DNA of 64,000 nucleotides from Guyparkeria hydrothermalis (GTDB lineage: Bacteria; Pseudomonadota; Gammaproteobacteria; Halothiobacillales; Halothiobacillaceae). Where the stretch lies: positions 62,001-126,000 of the forward strand of contig NZ_JAJSEE010000003.1 of the NCBI RefSeq assembly GCF_023555375.1, read 5' to 3'. The notes below the pieces were generated by a model that saw only the letters and a list, made by a program, of their open reading frames with translations, searched no databases and was not told the DNA's origin. The translations under genes were made by a program, and so were the position numbers. Positions 6,378 to 10,367 of the stretch are shown in pieces (position 1 is the stretch's first letter; each line of letters begins with the position of its first letter).

Positions 6378-7220
6378 ATGAGCACGCAAGCAACAGAGGC
6401 GGCAAAAGGGGCGCCGAACGCGGCGGTCGACCTGCACTTCGAGGAGCGTGGTGGCGGTCTGCCGGTCATCATCATGCACGGCCTGTTCGGTTCGCTGTCC
6501 AACTGGCGCGGCATTGCCCAGTCGTTGAGCGCGAACTACCGCGTCATCAACGTCGACCTGCGCAACCACGGCCGGTCGCCCCACGCCCCCGGTCTCTCTT
6601 ACGAGGCGATGGCCAACGACGTTCTCGCGGTGATGGATCGGCTCGGGGTCGAGCGCGCCCACCTGATCGGCCACTCGCTGGGCGGCAAGCTCGGCATGGT
6701 GCTGGCGGACCGTCACCCCGAGCGGGTCGCGCGACTGGCCGTGGTCGATATCGCGCCGAAGTGGTACCCGCCCTGGCACAAGGACGTCTTCGCCGCGCTG
6801 GATGCCGTCGACCTCCAGGCGCTCGAGTCGCGTGAGCAGGCGCGCCAGCAGATGGCCGCGCACGTGTTCGAGCCCGAGGTGCGCGCCTTCCTCGCCGCGA
6901 ATCTCGAGCAGGTCGACGGACAGTGGCGCTGGCGGTTCAATCTGCCCGAGCTCAAGGCCGCCTACGAGCAGACCTCGGACATGCCGGCGCTGTCGGGCTT
7001 CTACCTGGGGCCGGCGTTGTTCATTCGCGGTGCCCAGTCGGCCTACATCGAGGCCGGCGACGAGGAGCGTATCGCCCGCGATTTCCCGCAGAGCTGCATC
7101 GTCACGCTGGAGCGGGCGCGCCACTGGCCGCACATCGAGGACACGGCCGGGTTCCTCGACGCCGTCACGCGCTTCTTCGCCCACGGCTGCCAGGATTTCC
7201 CGGCGCGTCCGATCGGCTGA
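6378..7220 (+). CDS. ybfF: Alpha/beta-hydrolase, YbfF-like esterase
   Basis: A cytosolic serine esterase of the YbfF group; the natural substrate is unclear (E. coli YbfF hydrolyses acyl esters including acyl-CoA). The 280 residues show the oxyanion-loop motif MHGLFGS near 34, VDLRNHGRSPH, the nucleophile elbow GHSLGG (S100), and a C-terminal histidine in ARHWPHIED (about 249-252). It stands alone, divergent from rsmB. A GCCCCC-GATT-GGGGGC hairpin lies about 35 bases before the start, within the leader. The region after the gene is the regulatory RNA locus. Confidence 0.85.
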   Translation: MSTQATEAAKGAPNAAVDLHFEERGGGLPVIIMHGLFGSLSNWRGIAQSLSANYRVINVDLRNHGRSPHAPGLSYEAMANDVLAVMDRLGVERAHLIGHSLGGKLGMVLADRHPERVARLAVVDIAPKWYPPWHKDVFAALDAVDLQALESREQARQQMAAHVFEPEVRAFLAANLEQVDGQWRWRFNLPELKAAYEQTSDMPALSGFYLGPALFIRGAQSAYIEAGDEERIARDFPQSCIVTLERARHWPHIEDTAGFLDAVTRFFAHGCQDFPARPIG

Positions 7221-7239: not shown

Positions 7240-7278
7240 TGTAGGAAAATTCCTACAAGAGAAATGGAAAATTCCTAC
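7240..7278 (+). promoter_or_regulatory. GacA/UvrY-type upstream activating site for the sponge RNA
   Basis: TGTAGG-AAAATT-CCTACA (7240-7257) is a perfect 18-base palindrome that fits the GacA/UvrY/LetA consensus TGTAAG-N6-CTTACA with one symmetrical change. The 13-base core GGAAAATTCCTAC recurs at 7266-7278, 22 bases (two helical turns) further on. Sites of this kind sit upstream of csrB/rsmZ genes, and a GGA-rich RNA locus follows here. The exact promoter boxes are not clear; the start of transcription is placed only roughly near 7310. Confidence 0.78.
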
Positions 7279-7309
7279 GAAACTTTCGGCGATTTCATCT
7301 ATTCACCGC

Positions 7310-7973
7310 GCGTTCCGGGGCGCATCATGCACCCGTGCTTGGATGCACGGGGCAGGAAGCCCACCCGGCCAGGAGGCCGAGGGATCGTACGGCGGACAGG
7401 AGGTCCGCGCAGGATGCACCGGCAGAGGATCTGCCAGACCGGGTGGTCGGGTTCGCCCGACGCGCGCACGGCGCTCTGTTAAGGAAGCGCACCGTAAACA
7501 ACCGGACCTCGGGATAGAGTCCAGGTTTTTTGCGGGCCGCCAGGAAGGCCGCGGCGCGTTCGGCAAGGATGCCGGGCCCGGTAACGGATCTAGCCAAGCG
7601 CCCAGGACGGGCGCTGCCACGGACGGCAAGGGACGATTCCGCGCAGGACGCGCGCCCGATGCAGGATGGCATCGCCGAAAAAAGACGGTGGTAGACGCCG
7701 GCAACAACAAGCAACCGCAGGAACGGTCAGCGGCGAGACAAGAAGCAACAGGACCGGCAACGGATTTGCCCTAGTCTCAGGGATAAGCACTCGCCACACC
7801 GGACCCAGGGATTGGGACCCACGACTCCGCGCAGGGACAACGCGCCGCATCCATGCCGCAAGGCAGGATTGTTTCCCGGCCAGGACGGCCCTTCTCCTTT
7901 TTCTTTCGTCCTCGACGAACCAACCCGATTTATCCGCAGCCACCCTCCGATCGATTCGGAACCGGGTGTTTTT
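7310..7973 (+). ncRNA. CsrB/RsmZ-type CsrA-sequestering RNA
   Basis: A gene-free stretch (7221-8145) holds about 29 GGA triplets between 7321 and 7890, many in loops of short GC stems: CCCGTGC-TTGGAT-GCACGGG (7332-7351), GCGGAC-AGGAG-GTCCGC (7392-7408), GGCAG-AGGAT-CTGCC (7421-7435), GGCA-AGGA-TGCC (7562-7573), AGCGCCC-AGGAC-GGGCGCT (7597-7615), CGCGC-AGGAC-GCGCG (7640-7654), CGATGC-AGGATG-GCATCG (7657-7674). This is the design of CsrB-family RNAs, which titrate the translational repressor CsrA/RsmA. A GacA-type palindrome lies upstream and a terminator ends it. The 5' end is approximate. A GGAC/GTCC hairpin followed by six T residues at about 7503-7531 could produce a shorter species. csrA itself is not in the window. 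The tail 7974-8145 shows nothing recognised. Confidence 0.88.
7941..7973 (+). terminator. Terminator of the sponge RNA
   Basis: CACCC-TCCGA (7941-7950), loop TCGAT, TCGGA (7956-7960), a three-base bulge, GGGTG (7964-7968), then five T residues (7969-7973). An earlier end at the T-rich stretch 7893-7906 is possible. Confidence 0.7.

Positions 7974-8145: not shown

Positions 8146-10367
<2,222 letters not shown>

Follow-up and report, generated by a model that had tools for sequence, protein, structure and literature searches.

The 64-kb window analysed here (64,000 nucleotides, part of contig C3 of the 2.43-Mb genome of Guyparkeria hydrothermalis) very probably encodes a CsrA sponge RNA under the control of a GacA-type regulator. 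This GGA-rich non-coding RNA, a candidate of CsrB/RsmZ type, lies on the forward strand at 7311..7973, with an inferred start and an alternative 3′ end at ~7905, so that the predicted length is 663 nt if it runs from ~7311 to 7973 and 595 nt if it stops at a T-rich tract near 7905, on either side of the roughly 650 nt proposed in an earlier note on this DNA. The sequence supports its placement in the CsrB/RsmZ functional class as a new member without Rfam recognition, with CsrA binding predicted. The earlier note had claimed a sponge of this type together with a Gac/Csr switch, and the kind it named is supported by a csrA gene, a GacA-type gene, and GGA placed in loops. Sulfur lithotrophy is the lifestyle of the family and of the genus. 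For comparison, we used a family set of 27 genomes, which comprises Guyparkeria (group g1, 11 genomes including that of G. hydrothermalis), g4 (another genus, 10 genomes), g3 (five genomes), and g2 (a further genus with a single genome, G011).

The GGA array is dense and confined to one strand, with 29 GGA on the + strand of 7300–7900 vs. eight on the − strand. This bears out the earlier count of about 29 in about 570 bases, and dinucleotide shuffles of the stretch have a mean of 15.58 (sd 2.76, maximum 25), with none of 2000 reaching 29. Extended forms of the motif behave similarly: AGGA occurs 15 times (shuffle mean 3.1) and CAGGA 12 times (shuffle mean 1.24), neither count being reached in 2000 shuffles, and ANGGA occurs ten times (shuffle mean 3.3, reached by 2/2000). 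In the rest of the 64-kb window, the richest 580 bases hold 19 GGA on the + strand and 17 on the − strand. The GGA are mostly found in the loops of small hairpins, as 21 of the 29 are able to sit in loops of Watson–Crick stems of at least three pairs, and 16 in loops of stems of at least four. When the GGA were fixed, the other letters shuffled, and each GGA scored individually by the best stem around it, the means were 10.8 and 3.5, respectively, and the observed counts were reached in 0/200 shuffles. Enrichment over shuffled sequence was the check that the earlier note had set for its claim of GGA in stem loops, and the outcome is favourable. Among relatives, the same test in eight of the ten g4 genomes and in the one g2 genome gave counts that at most 7/200 shuffles reached in each for stems of at least three pairs, and at most 1/200 for at least four. 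The claimed absence of a protein gene also holds: none of the ten ORFs of at least 60 aa overlapping 7300–7900 has a Pfam match at E ≤ 0.01, and no frame is open throughout the GGA stretch in eight of ten orthologues (the exceptions are G004 and G010).

Conservation of structure was assessed in 17 local hairpins, picked from an RNAalifold consensus fold of ten Guyparkeria sequences, 15 of which have a GGA in the loop by reading. In these hairpins 97.9% of cells are paired, a percentage that is biased upward because the structure was derived from the same alignment. Seven pairs are changed on both sides, compared with 3.0 in shuffles (reached in 0/500) and 0–1 in slid controls, and 53 of the 74 pairs never vary. 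Further pair types are at shuffle level (17 vs. 16.3, reached in 206/500), RNAalifold assigns a small covariation term (−1.77 kcal/mol), and the global fold has only a moderate advantage over shuffled sequence (z −2.27, 20 shuffles). The GGA hairpin AGCGCCC-AGGAC-GGGCGCT (7597..7615, + strand) has both-side changes in three of its seven pairs, and the last GGA hairpin, GGCC-AGGAC-GGCC (7878..7890, + strand), has four pairs that are invariant in 10/10 sequences and leads into a T-rich tract that extends as far as 7907. The Rfam covariance search that the earlier note had proposed gave no CsrB or RsmX/Y/Z family over threshold: no family reached its gathering score on the stretch and none was usable at E ≤ 10, the best relevant match being PrrB_RsmZ (RF00166) at 14.9 bits vs. 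44 needed. On the whole G. hydrothermalis genome, the CsrB model (RF00018) matched neither this RNA nor a second sponge, a search that further sponges may escape. Several Guyparkeria genomes contain a spot with 82–85% resemblance to a 39-nt piece of the RNA (7678–7716); by eye, the lookalike in L037 and L038 (1501–1538) is close to an rplM-like ORF, and it is terminator-like on the other strand.

The RNA would be a free-standing intergenic gene with its own terminator. Upstream is an alpha/beta hydrolase gene (an esterase, PRK10673-like although below that model's cut-off; 6378..7220, + strand), and downstream, separate from the RNA gene, is queA (8146..9225, + strand). As claimed previously, an intrinsic terminator is present, consisting of a 28-nt hairpin (7941–7968) and U5 (7941..7973 in all, + strand), and it is conserved with compensatory changes. 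Its hairpin folds at −14.2 kcal/mol, which is better than shuffles but not rare (16/200 fold as well). In an alignment of ten rows, of which G007 and G008 align poorly, three of its pairs are changed on both sides against a shuffle mean of 1.0 (reached by 24/500), and its covariation score is reached by 2/500. That it went unlisted in a pattern scan is probably because of a 3-nt bulge. There are thus two possible 3′ ends, either the last GGA hairpin with its T-rich tract (7878–7907) or the better terminator at 7941–7973.

At the upstream end there is a GacA/UvrY-type 18-bp palindrome, TGTAGGAAAATTCCTACA (site 1; 7240..7257, + strand), which is of the UvrY consensus type (PMC4682653) and has the TGTAGG-N6-CCTACA form described in the earlier note. 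An imperfect copy (site 2; 7262..7279, + strand) lies 22 bp, or two helical turns, downstream, and the 13-base core of site 1 recurs at this spacing (starts 7244 and 7266), as the earlier note had also reported. A consensus scan found no sigma-70 promoter. Comparing promoters by eye suggested a putative −10 element, TCTATT (7298..7303, + strand), which would place the site centres near −62 and −40. The exact form TGTAGGN6CCTACA occurs twice in the G. hydrothermalis genome, upstream of the RNA and before the gene comEA1. Allowing up to one mismatch gave five single-site matches vs. four for a reversed control, which is not above control, and a single-site search at this setting is therefore too loose alone. 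The tandem-site pattern, with fixed spacing and up to three mismatches, gave 27 matches in 17 of the 27 family genomes, and the reversed pattern gave none. The pattern was built from three G. hydrothermalis promoters and sites already seen in relatives, so the matches in that genome are not independent of it, and the reversed control addresses chance rather than other spacings. Of these 27 matches, 17 head a GGA-rich stretch (17–33 GGA between +60 and +760), ten in Guyparkeria and seven in g4. The orthologous site in G022, TGTAAGAAAATTCTTACA, is an exact fit to the published UvrY consensus TGTAAGN6CTTACA (PMC4682653), and the g2 genome G011 has TGTAGGAGCAATCCTACA with 23–24 GGA downstream.

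The RNA and its setting are widely shared in the family. By DNA similarity the stretch was found in 10 of the 11 Guyparkeria genomes, with 74–92% identity in the nine others, and the search gave no match in G003, which is 64% complete. Short matches in this search were followed up at two places in the query, the site and positions 449–487. In g4 the RNA is present in 10/10 genomes, with a more diverged site in G015, G019, and G022 (31, 33, and 20 GGA, respectively). All 20 loci tested by tblastn (10 Guyparkeria, 10 g4) have the hydrolase upstream and queA downstream. In G011, the palindrome and a GGA-rich stretch are upstream of queA, tblastn did not find the hydrolase at the locus, and before queA come an opposite-strand ORF and a hairpin that, by eye, resembles a terminator and has a run of T. 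A survey of queA-upstream regions covered 30 of the 57 genomes from the DNA similarity search. Three regions with 20, 19, and 17 GGA per 400 bases (L181, L183, and L193) were dropped, as no site was seen by eye; the GGA stretch of L181 is inside the queA coding region, that of L183 is part of a repeat array, and that of L193 looks coding.

The earlier note had named the absence of csrA and gacA/uvrY as grounds for rejecting its reading, and both are present in the G. hydrothermalis genome: csrA as one copy, and a GacA/UvrY-type gene (C2:486546), with a receiver and a LuxR-type domain, directly before uvrC. No fliW match was found in this genome. The best family for the GacA-type protein is the UvrY/SirA/GacA model NF007018 (194 bits; next family 134), at a score below the curated cut-off of 280 bits, which none of the 27 family genomes passes. 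At E ≤ 1e-40, 22/27 genomes have a GacA-type match, and uvrC is beside the best match in 18 of 21 other genomes by a crude motif check (not in G015, G019, and G021). Of the 22 genomes that have the regulator, 21 also carry the RNA. The five genomes without the regulator are all g3; these keep csrA (5/5) and have no tandem site (0/5). Upstream of queA, the g3 genomes G012, G016, and G018 have 11–13 GGA per 400 bases, with no site and no GGA-rich stretch with a site; G014 has 178 bases before queA, and queA is split in G020. Nothing argues more strongly for assigning the site to the GacA-type protein than this shared absence, although g3 is one clade and a single event may account for it. CsrA had no match in G003, G010, G021, and G022, and the last three (93–99% complete) have the RNA, which may reflect draft gaps or real loss. 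The gacS search suggested by the earlier note did not succeed: the highest-scoring BarA/GacS candidate was a partial match to NF008318 with 131 bits, below the family cut-off of 890 bits. A 795-aa frame (L173 721–3105; G000:C1:387220–389604) has a receiver and an Hpt domain like the BarA C-terminus and no Pfam kinase domain. Seemingly the nearest in architecture, it is a candidate for an atypical partner of this regulator. In G011 (L182, L238, L259, L261, L262), four GacA-like regulators were observed at E ≤ 1e-40, and there the GGA-rich stretch has a single palindrome.

Guyparkeria has 20 tandem sites (up to three mismatches), ten at the RNA and ten at comEA-like loci. Five of the latter are before comEA1 and five are at the comEA2 locus, before an ATP-grasp (sucC-like) gene. 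G. hydrothermalis has three, at the RNA, comEA1, and comEA2 (the two comEA-like ones are L040 2757–2796, G000:C2:268756, and L041 2726–2765, G000:C2:198725), and G004, G006, G007, and G008 have the RNA site only at this threshold. A search with ComEA1 gave 26 places in the family, 15 in Guyparkeria and 11 in other genera. The tandem site (at least 18 of 23 positions) was found at 12 of the 15 Guyparkeria places, the other three having 15–16, and at none of the 11 places outside the genus (best 12–14 of 23). Both comEA1 and comEA2 pass Pfam HHH_3 and so have the ComEA helix-hairpin-helix region. For TIGR00426 (cut-off 53.1), comEA1 passes with 64.8 and comEA2 fails with 42.1, and neither passes the full-length ComEA model TIGR01259. 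By eye, the RNA, comEA1, and comEA2 promoters differ by no more than one base in how far the site is from a −10-like element. Among the five comEA2 loci, the gene is intact in three, the G009 copy has an in-frame TAA, and no HhH gene was found in G005. The site is kept at this locus even where the gene was not found (L163, G005) or has a stop (L235/L167, G009), as if comEA2 were decaying. By eye, an rRNA operon seems to end (5S-like sequence; L040 2500–2600, L041 2460–2550) directly before each of the two comEA-like genes of G. hydrothermalis.

Since all other Guyparkeria tandem sites are at comEA-like loci, direct GacA control of DNA uptake is suggested. The shared site is there to be seen; that a GacA-type regulator uses it to control the comEA-like genes directly is a tentative proposal, to which we give slightly less than an even chance. 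We are about as cautious, leaning a little against, on the wider idea that the direct GacA-type regulon of Guyparkeria is tiny, made up of the sponge RNA and the comEA-like genes, such that one switch would both free CsrA targets and start DNA uptake. In the seven comEA1 leaders compared (L168 1620; L161, L166, L169, L170, L217, L218), three GGA at the ribosome-binding site and start codon are conserved throughout and might form a CsrA site. The case for such a site is weak because the ribosome-binding site itself contains one GGA and four comEA2 leaders are without the arrangement. With it, comEA1 could be in a coherent feed-forward loop, with transcription through GacA and translation through the removal of CsrA. 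This comEA link is the part that a specialist would find unexpected, and it may be new.

Several other explanations of the stretch can be weighed against this evidence. That the GGA richness is an effect of composition, or part of a protein gene, is hardly credible: high G+C does keep long frames open, and G004 and G010 are open throughout, but the dinucleotide shuffles and the strand bias speak against composition, and the interrupted frames in eight orthologues, the ten ORFs without Pfam matches, and the indels and compensatory stem changes among orthologues speak against a protein. The stretch is on the same strand as queA and upstream of it in all 20 g1 and g4 loci tested, as would be expected if it were a long 5′ leader or attenuator of queA rather than a separate sponge gene. 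We consider this very unlikely, given that the conserved terminator ends the RNA at 7973, 172 nt before queA, that a 79-aa ORF on the opposite strand separates the GGA-rich stretch from queA in G011, and that the promoter site is common to unlinked comEA-like loci. It is equally improbable that we are dealing with a structural or base-pairing sRNA whose GGA hairpins serve another role. A GGA-free part (7667–7719) is well conserved and includes the 39-nt piece with its lookalike near rplM in relatives, which would fit such a role, whereas the CAGGA loops conform to the CsrB repeat CAGGA(U/A/C)G known from the literature (PMC7652899) and the GGA array is kept across genera in which the sequence has otherwise diverged.

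A further alternative keeps the sponge and changes its regulator, with the tandem site being bound by a protein other than the GacA-type one. The assignment of the site to the GacA-type protein comes from reading the DNA, no BarA/GacS partner is over the cut-off, and the genome has many further response regulators (20 GacA-model matches at E ≤ 0.001). On the other hand, the half-sites TGTAGG/TGTAAG match published UvrY sites (PMC4682653), the GacA-type gene and the RNA go together in all but one of the genomes with the gene, and gene and tandem site are both absent throughout g3. We therefore regard another regulator as unlikely.

Our preferred reading, a CsrA sponge under GacA-type control, implies the following sequence of events. 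The phosphorylated GacA/UvrY-type regulator would bind the two sites 22 bp apart and centred near −62 and −40, and from there would recruit RNA polymerase in what appears to be a class II-like geometry. The transcribed RNA (~595–663 nt) would display its ~29 GGA, most of them in the loops of small hairpins, and would titrate CsrA away from mRNAs. We infer transcription, binding of the regulator to its sites, CsrA binding, and the direction of control.

In many respects the RNA resembles CsrB/CsrC of E. coli and RsmX/Y/Z of Pseudomonas, which also carry GGA in hairpin loops with CAGGA repeats, are intergenic, end in an intrinsic terminator, and have a GacA/UvrY-type 18-bp palindrome upstream. 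Unlike those RNAs, it has no Rfam match, and it is 595–663 nt long vs. 356 positions in the Rfam CsrB model and has 29 GGA vs. 22 in CsrB and 14 in CsrC (PMC11882849). In E. coli csrB, the palindrome is followed after 5 bp by a partial TGTAGGAGA (PMC4682653), a spacing close to ours, and the site pair as such is therefore not new. The position differs, with the pair here lying at the inferred promoter and the centre of the csrB palindrome near −183 (PMC4682653). Another GGA-rich Csr RNA system of a non-model gammaproteobacterium is that of Pseudoalteromonas fuliginea, which we liken to ours by description; its RNAs Pf1, Pf2, and Pf3 have 25, 21, and 9 GGA, so three Csr RNAs compared with the one found here (PMC11882849).

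The regulator is like those of BarA-UvrY, GacS-GacA, and LetS-LetA in that its gene neighbours uvrC and its predicted site is an 18-bp inverted repeat, and unlike them in that the site also precedes comEA-like genes. In E. coli, csrB and csrC are by far the strongest UvrY targets (PMC4682653), and an earlier study cited in the same paper has rsmY and rsmZ as the sole GacA targets in P. aeruginosa. FliW and BarA-UvrY have been described as anti-correlated (PMC4682653), and the lack of a fliW match here is in line with this. In Legionella, loss of LetA lowers transformability more than 500-fold, by a route that was left open (PMC7811196). For Acidithiobacillus caldus, another sulfur oxidiser, no Csr-family sRNA had been identified according to a 2026 paper (PMC13029372). 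In the open-licence literature, we found nothing joining CsrB with Halothiobacillus, or Guyparkeria with CsrA.

With this RNA, a family of sulfur oxidisers would gain a CsrA antagonist. Its 29 GGA are more than in any of the published counts compared (25, 22, 21, 14, and 9; PMC11882849), a small sample. The site pair at the promoter, together with the pattern of presence and absence at the genus level, would allow the GacA regulon to be read off the sequence. If true, direct Gac control of comEA would be one possible answer to the question of how Gac systems affect natural transformation.
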